Source of the DNA: a virus
IMG/VR virus record: IMGVR_UViG_3300034111_001217
Location: 1 to 20,891 of that record
Reading direction: 5' to 3' (one strand)
Length of the DNA: 20,891 bases
The position numbers and the translations under genes were made by a program. Position 1 is the stretch's first letter; every line of letters begins with the position of its first letter. Shown piece by piece: positions 1-18,933 of this stretch. The notes under the pieces were generated by a model. It was not told the DNA's origin. It saw nothing but the letters and a program-made list of their open reading frames with translations, and did not search any database.

Positions 1-803
1 CCAATCTTTGAGTTATAAACTACTCTCTTTTTACTACGCTTCTTTAAACCTATCGGCCTAATTAATCCTTGCGGGATTAGAAGTTTTTCGAAAGAATCAC
101 AGACTTCTTGCGGAAGTATCGTGGCTAAGAACAGCTCTTAACTATGTACACACCTTTCGTCTATAACTGGCAAACACTTAAGCTTAATTTTTAATTGTAG
201 TTTTTATACCTGAGATAAAAATTGAGTTTTAGTTTTGTAGAATGATTCAAGTAGTGGTTTGCCACCAGCTCCGTTATCTTTTGAACAACGAAATACTATA
301 CTACTCGATGCAATATCCCTACTGCGTTATTTTGAGTCATCTTCATTTATGATTATTGGTATAATTCATAAAAGGATAGTAACAGCACCACCTGTACACA
401 GTCTTATCTTACTACCTTTCGTATAGTTTGATGTTAAGACCACTCTAATAATGAATACCGCAATGATGTAGAGGGATTAAGTCTACACTTCTTACTGATA
501 TTCTATGGGTTATTCTTATTGGTGTTCCCACCTCAACTAAAGTATCTACAATACCCCAGTTACTCAAACTCTTCAATGGTAGTGTTACCCCCACTTACAA
601 AGCCCAAATAATATCCCACTTGCATACTTAAGCTATTCTCCCTTACGGGGAAGGAGCCGCAAACATATCACTTAATATATTCACTTTATCCTTGTTTCCA
701 AGTTTATTTAACGACCATATGCGGCCGATGTTTACTATGTAGAACAAGTCTACTATGTAAAGATTTTAATAATTTAAAGAACTTAATGGTTGTTACCCCA
801 TTG
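1..803 (-). ncRNA. Candidate giant structured noncoding RNA (GOLLD/ROOL-like), runs to window edge
   Basis: No open reading frame of note exists on either strand here, yet the minus strand is full of short hairpins placed downstream of a promoter at 809-840. Stems I can pair by eye (plus coordinates): 785-802; 731-761 (two 5-bp stems around a symmetric 3x3 internal loop); 712-727; 691-702 (GAAA loop); 631-657 (CGTAA loop); 521-532 (GGAA loop); 467-487 (6 bp); 401-440 (6-bp outer helix with an inner GAAA hairpin); 246-285; 126-140; 103-117 and 63-79 (both with CGCAA loops). Large size, many GNRA-like loops and a position next to tRNA/tmRNA genes in a phage fit the GOLLD and ROOL families of large ornate RNAs. 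Membership is inference, and the 3' end may lie beyond base 1. The 5' end is estimated from the promoter. Confidence 0.65.
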
Positions 804-808
804 TTTTA

Positions 809-840
809 TAAATATACGATAATTTTTTTAAACTACCAAA
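809..840 (-). promoter_or_regulatory. Phage promoter, Bacteroidota type, for the large RNA
   Basis: On the minus strand TTTG (840-837) is followed by exactly 20 bases and TATATTTA (816-809). This matches the Bacteroidota -33 TTTG / -7 TAnnTTTG layout. The extended TTTGGTAG block and the ATTATCG just before the -7 element are shared with the copy at 12158-12189 and, with changes, with the copies at 914-945 and 1519-1550. Transcription would begin around 800-804, directly before the first hairpin of the large RNA. Confidence 0.75.
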
Positions 841-854
841 TATATTTAAACTTT

Positions 855-912
855 TTTTCCTAAGATTGAATACCGAGTATCTTTCATCACCTATAAGTTC
901 CAATCTTATATA
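855..912 (-). ncRNA. Candidate small hairpin RNA between tandem promoters
   Basis: Downstream of the promoter at 914-945 the minus strand forms a 7-bp closing helix, AAGATTG pairing with CAATCTT. It encloses about 33 bases that include a smaller GATAC/GTATT hairpin. A following AAGTT could pair back to the internal AACTT to give a pseudoknot. The next promoter begins at 840, so this unit would be only about 60-75 bases long. It has no coding potential. It is too short for a tRNA and has no T-loop. Its ends are approximate, and it could simply be leader sequence for the large RNA. Confidence 0.35.
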
Positions 913-913
913 G

Positions 914-945
914 CTAAGATACGATATGTTTTTCAATCTACCAAA
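914..945 (-). promoter_or_regulatory. Phage promoter, second RNA-locus copy
   Basis: TTTG (945-942), a 20-base spacer and TATCTTAG (921-914) on the minus strand. It keeps the TTTGGTAG block and the TATCG that precedes the -7 element in two sister promoters. It lies between the initiator tRNA and the promoter at 809-840, so the two form a tandem pair about 105 bases apart. Confidence 0.65.
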
Positions 946-953
946 TTTCTTTG

Positions 954-1041
954 GGGATTATTTTGTTAGAGTGTCCGGCTTTCTTCCGTACTGCGTACGT
1001 CACTCAATCGGTTTTATTAGTTGATGGCTTCAACCCTAACA
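954..1041 (-). ncRNA. Structured RNA segment downstream of the initiator tRNA
   Basis: Directly after the tRNA the minus strand folds into a small branched element. TGTTA near 1041 pairs with TAACA near 964 as a closing helix. Inside are GTTGA/TCAAC with a 5-base loop, and GAGTG/CACTC enclosing a CGTAC-GCA-GTACG hairpin. It has no TTCGA-type T-loop, so it is not a tRNA, and no U-run follows, so it is not a simple intrinsic terminator. It may be a 3' processing or stability element of the tmRNA-tRNA transcript, or a small RNA. Manual folding only. Confidence 0.4.
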
Positions 1042-1045
1042 TTTG

Positions 1046-1118
1046 TTGCGATGGAAAGATTCGAACTTCCGACCTCTAGGTTATGAGCCTAGCGAGCTAC
1101 CTCTGCTACTACATCGCG
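1046..1118 (-). tRNA. tRNA-Met(CAU), initiator type
   Basis: The acceptor strands CGCGATG and CATCGCA pair except at the first position, giving a C1-A72 mismatch. That mismatch is the hallmark of bacterial initiator tRNA. The anticodon stem CTAGG/CCTAG carries the loop CTCATAA (anticodon CAT), and the T-loop is TTCGAAT. The D-arm resembles E. coli tRNA-fMet (GGTAGCTCG side, A11-U24 pair) but has an extra or bulged base in its 5' strand. Positions 29-31/39-41 are AGG/CCT rather than the usual three G-C pairs. No CCA is encoded (A73 is followed by CAA). The gene starts 4 bases after the tmRNA 3' end, so both come from one transcript. An elongator or Ile2 identity is less likely because of C1-A72. 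Confidence 0.88.
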
Positions 1119-1122
1119 ATAT

Positions 1123-1495
1123 TGGTGGAGATGAAGGGAGTCGAACCCTTGTCTTACAAAGTAATTATAATACCAGCATGTCACACGTTTAGAATAAAGT
1201 TTTAATCTTACTAACTTTTCAAAAGAATTGGGGTCGGATGGTTAGTCCAACGTTACCACCAACCGATTTAAAGTTTCGGTAAACTTATTTTCACATTCTA
1301 TTTAATTGTCCCATGATGTGTACGGGAGTAATTATGCTGCTACAGCGTAATCGGCACCGATGAAATCCATTAAGGAATCAAAGGTCATAGTTGACATTTC
1401 GTCAGTTATTGTTTTGTGCAGATTTAAGGAGAACTAGCACTTCTCTCCACGTGTGATACTACAATTCTCATTGCAATCAATTCCAAAGCATCCCC
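1123..1495 (-). ncRNA. ssrA: tmRNA (transfer-messenger RNA)
   Basis: tmRNA rescues stalled ribosomes and tags the unfinished protein for proteolysis. The 5' end GGGGATG pairs with CATCTCC before A and an encoded CCA, a 7-bp acceptor with one G-U. The T-arm AAGGG-TTCGACT-CCCTT is perfect. A long helix joins the halves (plus 1449-1456 with 1181-1188, 8 bp). Pseudoknot 1 lies just before the tag: stem 1428-1432/1444-1448, with loop GTGC pairing to GCAC at 1416-1419. Pseudoknots 2 and 3 can also be paired (1309-1312/1324-1327 with 1292-1296/1316-1320; 1272-1276/1281-1285 with 1262-1266/1276-1280). The tag frame ends ADYAVAA, close to the usual YALAA degron. Length is 373 bases, normal for one-piece tmRNA. 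Mature ends need RNase P and 3' processing. Confidence 0.96.
1332..1400 (-). other. tmRNA tag-peptide reading frame (22 codons plus TAA)
   Basis: The resume codon is probably GAA at 1400, about 15 bases after pseudoknot 1 and following CTGAC, which resembles the TAGTC that precedes the E. coli resume codon. The frame runs 22 codons without a stop and ends Ala-Asp-Tyr-Ala-Val-Ala-Ala. GAC at 1403 is an alternative first codon. The tag is about twice the usual 8-12 residues. The hydrophobic ending is the part that ClpXP-type proteases recognise in known tags. The exact resume codon is inferred. Confidence 0.8.
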
Positions 1496-8716: not shown

Positions 8717-9028
8717 TTATCTAATTACCATTAAGAGTTCTGACTCTCTTACTAGCATATATTTTTTACCTTCTAATTTAATTTCAGTTCCGTTATGATA
8801 AGGTGGAATAATTACCTGGTCACCTTCTTCTACTTTCATTGGAATTAATGTTCCACTTTGTGTGTAGATACCAGGTCCTACTGCAACTACTTTTACAACT
8901 CTAACATCTTCAGTTCTAACACTATCAGGTAAAATTATACCACCTGCTGATGTTTCTGCTTCTTTTTGTTCTTCAAATAGGAGAACTCTATCTCCCAATG
9001 GTTGTGCTAATCTTTCTTTGTTTGCCAT
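8717..9028 (-). CDS. groES: Co-chaperonin GroES (Cpn10)
   Basis: The frame is open from 9085, but the conserved protein begins at MANKERLAQPLGDRVL, so I place the start at 9028, giving 103 residues. This start lies 7 bases after the nuclease stop and avoids a long overlap. Typical Cpn10 features follow: the first strand PLGDRVLL, the mobile loop with AGGIILPDS around residues 28-36, VVAVGPG, and the hydrophobic C-terminus. No GroEL is encoded here, so it should cap the host chaperonin, as T4 gp31 does for folding the capsid protein. It sits between recombination and helicase genes and is expressed with them. Confidence 0.94.
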   Translation of the reverse strand: MANKERLAQPLGDRVLLFEEQKEAETSAGGIILPDSVRTEDVRVVKVVAVGPGIYTQSGTLIPMKVEEGDQVIIPPYHNGTEIKLEGKKYMLVRESELLMVIR

Positions 9029-9035
9029 TTTAATT

Positions 9036-10064
9036 TTATTTATGTAATTTTGCAAATGTACTTTGAATCCAACTATTAACATCACCGAATGAATTAATAG
9101 TTCGCATTCCCATTGCCTTTTTAATGAATCCTAATTTATCCAATTTTGCTGAATTATCCAAATATTTTTGGTTAATTGTTAATTTTTTATTTGTTGGTAT
9201 ATCTGGATCGGATAATTGCATTAATTTATAGTTTCTTTCAATTATTTTTTTACCATCTAAAATCTTATCATAGAATTTATTTTCACTCTTACGTTGTTCA
9301 CATAGTTCAAACATTTTATCTATGGTAAGTTCCGTTTTTGCAACCACCTCCGGAAATCTCTTAACAATAGTTTTAAGCCCACACCCAGGAATACCATCAA
9401 TGTTATCGGACTTATCACCATCAAGAGTACGATAAACCATAAAATTTGAGGGATGAACACCATACTCATCCAAAACAAGTTTTGTATCGTAAACTTTCTT
9501 TTTTGTTGGGGAATAAACTGTGACTCTTTCATTTACTAATTGTAGGAAATCTTTATCGGCACTCATAATAACTGCCAATTCATCCTCTTTTAAAAGTTGT
9601 GATGCAATATAGCCCATAACATCATCTGCTTCGATGTTATCGTATAACATTATTTCCACAGGTAGGTACTCTAGCAGTTCGATTAAACCAATCATTTGTC
9701 GTTTCATAGATACACCCTCTTCTTCTTTGTTCATCAAATCTGCGTAGGCTCTATTCACTCTAAATCTATTGTTACCTCTATTTTCTTTGTAACCACTATA
9801 TAAATCCTTTCTACTTTTAGAACCACCTTTACCATCAAATACAATAATACAACGAGTTGCATTTTGTTCTCTAATAGCAAAACCAATTCCTTTTAAGAAT
9901 CCAACGATACCACCAATATGGTCTCCGTTATCATCCATAGTAGGATTTACTGTCCAACTTCTTATAAAGGTATTAAGACCATCAACAATTAATACCTTTT
10001 CTTTTCCTAATTGCTGATGGTCTTTCTCTACCTCGTTTAGTAACTTTTTGTATGTTTCGTTCAT
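9036..10064 (-). CDS. 5'-3' exonuclease / flap endonuclease, T4 RNase H-like
   Basis: A 342-residue FEN/PIN-fold nuclease that should remove RNA primers and 5' flaps from Okazaki fragments. Metal-binding acids appear in order: Asp28 (VDGLN), Asp77 (VFDGKGG), the IEADDV cluster at 144-149, SADKD at 168-172, and DGDKSDNI around 215-222, which leads into the helix-3-turn-helix IPGCGLKT. It is not fused to a polymerase, as in T4 rnh. It lies 6 bases after recA/uvsX. The first ~20 residues before KVLIVDG are poorly conserved, so the true start could be slightly later. Confidence 0.88.
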   Translation of the reverse strand: MNETYKKLLNEVEKDHQQLGKEKVLIVDGLNTFIRSWTVNPTMDDNGDHIGGIVGFLKGIGFAIREQNATRCIIVFDGKGGSKSRKDLYSGYKENRGNNRFRVNRAYADLMNKEEEGVSMKRQMIGLIELLEYLPVEIMLYDNIEADDVMGYIASQLLKEDELAVIMSADKDFLQLVNERVTVYSPTKKKVYDTKLVLDEYGVHPSNFMVYRTLDGDKSDNIDGIPGCGLKTIVKRFPEVVAKTELTIDKMFELCEQRKSENKFYDKILDGKKIIERNYKLMQLSDPDIPTNKKLTINQKYLDNSAKLDKLGFIKKAMGMRTINSFGDVNSWIQSTFAKLHK

Positions 10065-12425: not shown

Positions 12426-12632
12426 TTATTTTTTTAATCCGTACTTAATCCATTTATACCAAACTCTTTCATGTAGATAATACTGAATAGGTTTGTAAAT
12501 CAATTCTGCTACCCCAAATGCAGCACCTACTTTAATTGAACCACTTATCCACCACATTAATAAAAATCCAACTAAGGTACTTACAATACGATATGATATG
12601 GTTTTTGCAATATGTCTCTTAATCAACGGCAT
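12426..12632 (-). CDS. DUF2061 membrane protein
   Basis: A 68-residue protein with the DUF2061 pattern: KRHIAKTISYRIVSTLVGF at the start and YYLHERVWYKW near the end. One clear hydrophobic segment (about 15-31) and a second, weaker one (about 33-46) suggest an inner-membrane protein with a basic cytoplasmic N-terminus. From memory, DUF2061 genes can be found beside sulfate-activation genes in bacteria. Here it overlaps the nucleotidyltransferase by 14 bases and lies one gene from the APS-kinase-like gene, repeating that association in a phage. Its molecular function is not established. Confidence 0.82.
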   Translation of the reverse strand: MPLIKRHIAKTISYRIVSTLVGFLLMWWISGSIKVGAAFGVAELIYKPIQYYLHERVWYKWIKYGLKK

Positions 12633-12996
12633 ATTCTATAACATCTCCATCAGTGTCCATATAACCTTTTCTAATTTTAGTTCCACTTATCAATTCAATA
12701 TCAGCAGGTGGTGGATGATTGATAACCTCATACCCTACACCTCTACCATAGTTTACTGATTCAATATCAGGAATAATACTTACTAAAATTTTATCTATGT
12801 TTTCTTGAAAAAATGGTTCTTCCATTAAATCCATCATAACTTTATAAGCTGATTTAGGATTACTTTCATCTTCCGGTACATCTCTAATTGCTACCCAAAC
12901 ATCTTTTCCTTTGTCTAATTGTTGACGAATTAACCATTCGTGTCCTGCGTGCCAAGTTTGCCATCTTCCGATGAACATTGCGTATTTTCTTTTCAT
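12619..12996 (-). CDS. HxGH-motif nucleotidyltransferase
   Basis: A 125-residue single-domain enzyme of the cytidylyltransferase/NMNAT superfamily. GRWQTWHAGH at about 10-19 holds the HxGH signature (HAGH), and ISGTKIRKG near 104-112 is the second ATP-binding motif (ISxTxxR). YGRGVGYEV around 83-91 lies between them. The superfamily transfers a nucleotidyl group from an NTP to a phosphorylated or acidic acceptor; the acceptor here is not evident. ISGT also occurs in ATP sulfurylase, but the sulfurylase HxxH-region sequence is absent, so I do not call it one. It stands between an APS-kinase-like gene (23-base gap) and DUF2061 (overlap), so a shared pathway is likely. Confidence 0.8.
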   Translation of the reverse strand: MKRKYAMFIGRWQTWHAGHEWLIRQQLDKGKDVWVAIRDVPEDESNPKSAYKVMMDLMEEPFFQENIDKILVSIIPDIESVNYGRGVGYEVINHPPPADIELISGTKIRKGYMDTDGDVIEYAVD

Positions 12997-13019
12997 AACT
13001 CTAATTTACAATTTTATTT

Positions 13020-13457
13020 TTATATTCCCAAATCTTTACGGAGCTTTTTGAAAGTATCTATTTCTCTTTCATTTGTAGTATCTAAATCAATATAAAATTC
13101 AGTAGGTGCTTCGTAATTAGAAACGTGAAATCCTTCTCTACCTCTTTCATTTGAAGTATGAACATAAATTTCTATTAGGTTTTCACCCATTTCTTCTTTG
13201 AATTTATCTCTTTGGTCTTTGTATGGTGAAACTAATGATACCACTACGTTGTAGCCTTTGTGTTGTAAGAATTTAGCTAATGTTTGTGCATTAGTTATAT
13301 TCTTTCTACGACCTTCCTCTGAATAATCTTTGTTTTGAAATACATCTCTAATATCATCACCATCAATAGTGATAACTTTATGTATTAAATGAGATTCCAT
13401 CCAATTAGCCATAGTAGTTTTTCCACTACCAGGCTGTCCTGTAAACCAATATATCAT
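13020..13457 (-). CDS. Adenylylsulfate (APS) kinase-like P-loop kinase
   Basis: APS kinase phosphorylates adenylylsulfate at the 3'-OH to give PAPS, the sulfuryl donor. The protein shows a P-loop GQPGSGKTT at about 7-15, DGDDIRDVF at 33-41, then RRKNITNAQTLAKFL and VVSLVSPYKDQRDKF, all in CysC order, and a shortened RGREGFHVSNYEAP region. At 145 residues it is well below the usual ~200, with the lid and C-terminal parts trimmed. No ATP sulfurylase is seen here. The substrate could therefore differ, for example a modified nucleoside or sugar. It starts the trio of kinase, nucleotidyltransferase and DUF2061. Confidence 0.78.
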   Translation of the reverse strand: MIYWFTGQPGSGKTTMANWMESHLIHKVITIDGDDIRDVFQNKDYSEEGRRKNITNAQTLAKFLQHKGYNVVVSLVSPYKDQRDKFKEEMGENLIEIYVHTSNERGREGFHVSNYEAPTEFYIDLDTTNEREIDTFKKLRKDLGI

Positions 13458-18123: not shown

Positions 18124-18933
18124 TTAAAATCCACCGAAATTCTTTTCATCTGATTCTGTCCAATGTTTTGCTTTTAATGCGTGCAAATCGATTGGTTCTC
18201 TTTTCATATGTCCACCTTTATTAAAGATTGCTCCTTTTTTAAGATAACCACCTAATAAGTTTCTACGGAATCTATTTGAGTTATTTGCTTCAGAACCATG
18301 TACACAATGTGAGTGTAACAATACTACTTGTCCTTTTCTTAAATAACCTTCTACTTTACGGAAATCATGTCCTTCAGGCATTACACAAGGTTTACCTCTT
18401 TCGTTTCTCCAAAATGTAGGATTAGTTTTTGTTCTATCTTCATCTACTTCGATTGGTAAAGTTTGTAATCTATGTGAACCTTCATAGTTCCACACTGCTC
18501 CATTTTCAGGGTCATGATTATCTAATGCCAAAGCTGTGTTAATAATTTCATTATGTCCACATCCTGTATAAAATGCGTTTTGATGTTGGTCTCTACCTAA
18601 TTGTCCTGGTGGTTTAAAATAACACCAAGTTTGCATTCCTTGTACTTCACCTTCCATTAAAAATTCACATGCTTCCAAAATCTTTGGATGACAAAACATT
18701 TTTTCTAATTTAGGAGAAAGTTTATGTGGATATGCAAAAGGATCCCACTCACCCCACTCTTTACCATCTTCGGTAGTTGTACCAATTCTAGCTTGTCTTA
18801 ATCTTTCTAATTCATCGTTTACTTCATCAACCTCTTCTTCGGTTAATAATTCTAATACGGTGAATCCTCTGTATCGCCAATCGAAAGTAATTTGTTGTAC
18901 TTCTAAATCGGTTAGATGTTTAAAATTGCTCAT
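18124..18933 (-). CDS. Phytanoyl-CoA dioxygenase-like (PhyH) Fe(II)/2-oxoglutarate oxygenase
   Basis: A 269-residue protein of the PhyH family, enzymes that hydroxylate substrates using iron, O2 and 2-oxoglutarate. Supporting blocks: FKPPGQLGRDQHQ around 106-118, ALALDNHDPENGAVW at about 134-148, EGSHR at 151-155, GQVVLLHSHCVHGS at 201-214 with distal His212, and RFRRN near 221-225 for the oxoglutarate carboxylate. The first metal triad normally reads HxD; here it reads His117-Gln-Asn119, an Asp-to-Asn change. It has its own promoter (18954-18985) and terminator, so it is a monocistronic unit. Related genes are common in marine T4-like phages. The substrate is unknown. Confidence 0.85.
   Translation of the reverse strand: MSNFKHLTDLEVQQITFDWRYRGFTVLELLTEEEVDEVNDELERLRQARIGTTTEDGKEWGEWDPFAYPHKLSPKLEKMFCHPKILEACEFLMEGEVQGMQTWCYFKPPGQLGRDQHQNAFYTGCGHNEIINTALALDNHDPENGAVWNYEGSHRLQTLPIEVDEDRTKTNPTFWRNERGKPCVMPEGHDFRKVEGYLRKGQVVLLHSHCVHGSEANNSNRFRRNLLGGYLKKGAIFNKGGHMKREPIDLHALKAKHWTESDEKNFGGF

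Follow-up and report, generated by a model that had tools for sequence, protein, structure and literature searches.

The minus strand of positions 1 to ~803 of the window, by which is meant the entire 20,891-base record of a lake phage, contains a new sequence of GOLLD, a class of giant RNA that is already known and is not new in itself; what is new at this GOLLD is its leader, which carries a boxA and, further upstream, two structured elements designated here as B and A. GOLLD RNAs exceed 800 nt in total and consist of a 3' domain conserved throughout the class and, before it, a structured 5' domain that is less conserved; they are located in phages or prophages, often near tRNA genes, and their expression rises during lysis. 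The features of the locus are as follows.

1 to 308, minus strand: GOLLD 3' domain, RF02032 model positions 1-308 of 416, the contig end removing ~107 nt
309 to 727, minus strand: GOLLD 5' domain, 116 consensus base pairs with covariation over 70 divergent sequences
731 to 761, minus strand: leading stem-loop, UUUACAUAGUAGA...UCUACAUAGUAAA, supported by its fold and by compensating changes in the alignment of close relatives
773 to 782, minus strand: boxA-like element, GUUCUUUAAA, containing the top 7-mer of an unbiased enrichment, strand-specific
810 to 840, minus strand: GOLLD promoter of Bacteroidota type, TTTGGTAG-N-TATATTT (TTTG-N-TATATTT)
862 to 907, minus strand: element B, a hairpin with a 12-bp covarying stem and the invariant core RAUGAAAGAUACUCG
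915 to 945, minus strand: element B promoter, TTTGGTAG...TATCTTA
964 to 1041, minus strand: element A, a pseudoknotted RNA with the core UUGAAGCCA...UAAUAAAACCGA...AAAGCCGGA
1045 to 1118, minus strand: tRNA-Met (CAU), with a C1.A72 mismatch of the kind seen in initiator tRNAs
1123 to 1495, minus strand: phage tmRNA (Rfam 89.5 bits, ARAGORN), tag DEMSTMTFDSLMDFIGADYAVAA
1520 to 1550, minus strand: tmRNA promoter, assigned by the promoter pattern

A search with Rfam cmscan matched GOLLD (RF02032) at 1-308 on the minus strand with a score of 182.8 bits (E 2.7e-50), passing the gathering cut-off of 150 bits although the match is truncated. RF02032 covers the GOLLD 3' domain only, and the truncation falls at the 3' end of the match, in agreement with the claim of a first-pass annotation that the RNA reaches base 1; as the window is the complete record, the RNA structure stops at the contig end. 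The same annotation had proposed a GOLLD or ROOL member or a new class, and had asked for an Rfam search with the GOLLD, ROOL, OLE and HEARO models. GOLLD alone matched, with no covariance-model match at E<=1 in the window for ROOL (RF03087), OLE or HEARO, such that membership in GOLLD stands while ROOL, OLE, HEARO and a new class fall away. The claimed hairpin density of the minus strand is likewise borne out, given that 309-727 alone contains 116 strongly covarying consensus pairs, and the strand folds over 1-800 at -196.7 kcal/mol, whereas shuffled versions average -175.6 (z -3.0) and none of the 20 is as stable.

Twenty-three relatives were fetched via the adjacent ATPase gene, and GOLLD was found above the cut-off in the records of 18, the other five including short records that possibly end before GOLLD. 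In 17 of these 18 the 3' domain spans 409-418 nt at 269-297 bits, while the GOLLD of the remaining one (L042) is cut, as in the window. A pattern taken from the region preceding the 3' domain, AAATAAACTNNGAAANNAGGATAAAGTG, produced at least 120 matches in viral contigs; among the matches listed, the 5' region directly adjoins the 3' domain in most loci, and in most of the loci lacking an adjoining 3' domain the fetched stretch ends too soon. Over the 70 divergent sequences, 95.5% of cells pair, 92 of the 116 predicted pairs are changed on both sides, and double-change cells number 1478, compared to 395 ± 24 in shuffled and 203-249 in slid controls. Covariation and direct adjacency to the 3' domain together identify 309-727, which lies outside the Rfam model, as the GOLLD 5' domain. 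A giant structured RNA, as originally claimed, is thus supported by both the above-threshold GOLLD match and the covarying 5' domain.

These results bear directly upon two other readings of the region. That Rfam covers just the 3' part might be taken to favor a different giant RNA class (ROOL, OLE or HEARO) or an entirely new one; this is exceedingly improbable, however, as within the window only GOLLD matches and the GOLLD 3' domain directly follows the 5' domain in most of the listed loci bearing the 5' pattern. The gene-dense nature of phage genomes could similarly suggest degenerate coding DNA or a regulatory region, a reading supported by no tool result and to which we assign next to no probability: consistent with the earlier claim that no useful frame is present, the longest ORFs within 1-803 are 55 and 49 aa, and homologues display compensatory base-pair changes as opposed to the codon-like substitution that had been named as a potential refutation.

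The 5' domain of the window measures 419 nt and the 3' domain of the relatives 409-418 nt; GOLLD in the relatives comprises both domains and totals ~830-837 nt, i.e., more than 800 nt, and a full length of ~835 nt is expected for the window copy, of which 727 nt are left. The GOLLD of env-38, as determined by cryo-EM, contains a 5' domain of 420 nt and a 3' domain of 413 nt, for a total of 833 (PMC12286853). Features shared with env-38 GOLLD include the 3' domain recognized by the covariance model, the placement before it of a 5' domain of equal length, a variable, AU-rich linker near the start of the 3' domain, an apparent palindromic kissing loop, and residence in a phage next to tRNA-Met and a tRNA island. 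With respect to the kissing loop, the palindrome of the intermolecular loop L21a (bridge B8) switches between GC and CG (PMC12286853), and the apparent counterpart of L21a in the 3' domain, placed by inferred env-38 numbering, alternates between CGCAAG and UCGAA, such that the central dinucleotide (GC or CG) remains self-complementary. Compared to GOLLD as described in PMC12286853, in which there is no mention of boxA, antitermination, an element B leader or a tmRNA neighbor, the window adds a boxA/element B leader and a neighboring tmRNA.

A dedicated promoter matching others in the same genome had also been claimed, and is indeed present at 810-840 on the minus strand. Copies of its upstream box occur at 824, 929, 1534, 12173 and 16107 (minus strand); this stricter box is found five times in the window as compared to 0.5 expected, and the pattern TTTG-N-TAnnTTT occurs 19 times as compared to 6.4 expected. 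The previously suggested Bacteroidota phage lineage gains indirect support from this promoter type and from the replicative helicase, the nearest isolated relatives of which include Flavobacterium phages (39% identity), though it is slightly closer to an uncultured phage (44%) and a Microcystis phage (43%). The GOLLD carrier is a tailed phage, probably of a Bacteroidota host. Among named phages, BLAST returned only the GOLLD of the uncultured huge phages LR745206 and LR756502. Across 257 Gb of genomes from bacteria and archaea, neither the 5'-domain pattern nor a 20-base core of element B gave an exact match, and this route accordingly led to no host or prophage.

Elsewhere in the window, a small cluster at 12426-13457 (minus strand) appears by eye to encode APS-kinase-like, nucleotidyltransferase-like and DUF2061-like membrane proteins, and perhaps serves a sulfur-containing modification. 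Also on the minus strand are a Phytanoyl-CoA dioxygenase (PhyH) family protein (18124-18933; Pfam E 2.6e-22) and, by eye, a putative GroES-type co-chaperonin (8717-9085).

In bacteria, the GUUCUUU boxA is the antitermination, or "keep transcribing," signal of rRNA. When 7-mers upstream of the 5' domain were ranked by unbiased enrichment, GUUCUUU (GTTCTTT) came first. Of 77 distinct GOLLD loci, 76 have it in the 150 nt upstream, as compared to 2.5 expected from those loci, and one has it on the opposite strand; following stricter redundancy removal the counts are 44/45 and 29/30, and since all loci were collected with one 5'-domain pattern, this rate holds for one GOLLD class. The leader consensus, AAAA[AC]GUUCUUURAAAA, agrees with boxA as published (GYTCTTTAANA; PMC5725501), and the window GOLLD, an untranslated RNA, carries this boxA consensus in its nascent leader. 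In rRNA leaders, boxA is the site of NusB/S10 (PMC10931766). As in rRNA operon leaders (PMC5725501, PMC10931766), boxA here leads a long structured untranslated RNA, and a hairpin, element B, stands upstream of it in the manner of rrn boxB; unlike those leaders, transcription is served by a phage promoter, and element B carries a distinct conserved core and is in many cases served by a separate promoter. No boxA lies near GOLLD in the huge phage LR756502 or ahead of ROOL in pMP118, and boxA is therefore not universal in giant RNAs. It was rejected as a mark of all such RNAs on the basis of the pMP118 ROOL and of phage ICP1, where it is missing at the start of an ORF-free gap of ~1 kb that itself matches neither ROOL nor GOLLD.

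Element B displays covariation: 11 of the 12 stem pairs are changed on both sides among 44 distinct sequences, and double-change cells number 81 as compared to 23.3 in shuffled alignments (0 of 500 shuffles as high). Its 18-base core, which differs slightly in pattern from the 20-base core mentioned above, occurs in 91 viral stretches. The promoter pattern starts 57-61 nt before the core in 60 of 76 contexts (background 3.4%), and boxA follows within 150 nt downstream in 61 of the 76 (background 4.1%). No Rfam match reaches its family cut-off. A C/D-box or k-turn identity for element B was considered and rejected, given that Rfam scores for sR1, sR2 and sR9 are far below cut-off and that conservation is lacking at the C and D boxes.

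Element B precedes GOLLD, tRNA genes, or a structured RNA, not described before, that follows a DUF2828/DUF7788 gene. With respect to the first context, GOLLD's own promoter is absent in L041 and the L025 group and the element B promoter serves both; this single promoter before B and GOLLD places B within the GOLLD transcript there. tRNA-like genes lying directly after element B (L166, L168, L171, L172, L228 and others) contain a long D-arm insert (GTAACTCTTCGGGGTTT), and ARAGORN makes no call on them. In the third context, B overlaps the stop codon of the DUF2828/DUF7788 protein gene, and the RNA that follows is ORF-free, extends 515-595 nt from B and ends in an intrinsic terminator. Across five sequences, 36 of its pairs are double-changed as compared to 14.7 when shuffled, and no Rfam match was obtained at cut-off. 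The five loci (L165, L176, L197, L216, L221) are all led by element B, four contain boxA, and in L221 the RNA sits before a Mom DNA-modification gene. Whether, within one broad phage group, a shared leader of B and boxA drives rRNA-type antiterminated transcription of GOLLD, tRNA arrays and the 515-595-nt RNA is, from these sequence patterns, a proposition that we regard as evenly balanced.

Element A combines a closing stem with a helix of 4 bp and, as the pseudoknot, another of 3 bp, with 95.9% of cells paired and 95 double-change cells as compared to 37.9 when shuffled; no Rfam match was found at cut-off. The core is present in at least 119 viral stretches. It often stands upstream of a gene for a UvsX-like recombinase, ~70-100 nt from the start codon, and also before a methyltransferase and a DnaB-like helicase; these genes were assigned because their products resemble proteins encoded in the window. 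The element is also observed at L240-L331, and is widespread in phages, the 5' UTR of genes for UvsX-like recombinases being a frequent location. It may act as a regulator or may cleave itself.

The order of the RNA-gene cluster is tmRNA, tRNA-Met, A, B, boxA, GOLLD and tRNA island, and close relatives retain the ATPase gene, tmRNA, tRNA-Met, A, B, GOLLD and ~17-20 tRNAs; RNAs of this kind had been described as often lying beside tRNA genes, and tRNA-Met and a tRNA island flank GOLLD. The same tmRNA gene is found in nearly all close relatives. The tag it encodes has 23 residues, and a distant group of relatives encodes ANVELSTMTFEDAMAWMNSFDYAVAA. As in known phage arrays (PMC7162821, PMC9004378), a tmRNA is accompanied by up to ~20 tRNAs per island; unlike those arrays, the window joins GOLLD and elements A and B to them in a conserved order. 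Ninety distinct GOLLD loci were surveyed, 81 with sufficient upstream sequence. Thirty of these have an RNA gene upstream, the closest one being tRNA-Met in 25, and a tmRNA lies within 2.5 kb of GOLLD in 19 of the 81. No tRNA or tmRNA is located within 2.5 kb upstream in 51 of the 81, and a link to translation is thus not universal. By ARAGORN boundaries, C1.A72 is present in the window tRNA-Met and about two thirds of the neighbors; the notion that every tRNA-Met next to GOLLD is an initiator was discarded, and the GGG/CCC anticodon stem is mostly absent.

Taken together, we consider it likely that GOLLD is a stable untranslated RNA, produced probably via rRNA-type antitermination, that forms a cage during infection. 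In the proposed sequence of events, host RNA polymerase would start at the GOLLD promoter and the nascent leader would present boxA, to which host NusB/S10 would bind as in rRNA operons; the polymerase would thereby resist Rho and co-transcriptional folding would be helped, yielding the long untranslated RNA in quantity. We infer this antiterminated transcription from the leader sequence. Alternatively, GOLLD may stand without GUUCUUU being a working boxA, the motif belonging instead to a single-stranded part of GOLLD or to the site of a phage regulator, as a fixed spacing of ~56 nt between GUUCUUU and the 5' domain in close relatives might indicate. This is unlikely: in distant loci the spacing ranges from ~7 to 120 nt while the motif remains exact, the same motif follows element B before tRNAs and an unrelated RNA, and the rRNA boxA is matched in both context and consensus.

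Following antiterminated transcription, the RNA would assemble into a closed multimer, a step predicted for the window phage from family membership: the GOLLD of env-38 is a 14-mer forming a hollow cage by cryo-EM (PMC12286853). Least certain is what follows, namely the speculative suggestion that the target of the cage is the translation machinery, with tRNAs, tmRNA or ribosomes being held, protected or diverted. Such a role is suggested by the tRNA and tmRNA neighbors together with pull-downs, cited in PMC12286853, in which ribosomes bind GOLLD. It is quite conceivable, if somewhat short of an even chance, that the cage is instead a general storage, decoy or anti-defense particle and that tRNA and tmRNA merely share an RNA-gene island with it. 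The majority of GOLLD loci without close upstream tRNA genes would fit such a particle, as would the finding that the GOLLD of a Lactobacillus brevis prophage is dispensable for phage production (PMC7567579); the near-constant identity of the close upstream RNA gene as tRNA-Met and the recurrence of tmRNA, on the other hand, argue against it.

Elements A and B and the RNA following DUF2828/DUF7788 genes represent structured phage RNAs that are missing from Rfam 15. The conserved block of tmRNA, tRNA-Met, GOLLD and tRNA island highlights translation as the place to seek a function for GOLLD. The near-invariant boxA offers a direct and testable account of how a long untranslated RNA is produced during infection, and its presence before GOLLD ties the cage RNA to the ribosomal-RNA pathway. 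Should the shared leader of B and boxA operate as proposed, giant RNA cages would be produced by way of the host's own pathway for transcribing and folding ribosomal RNA.
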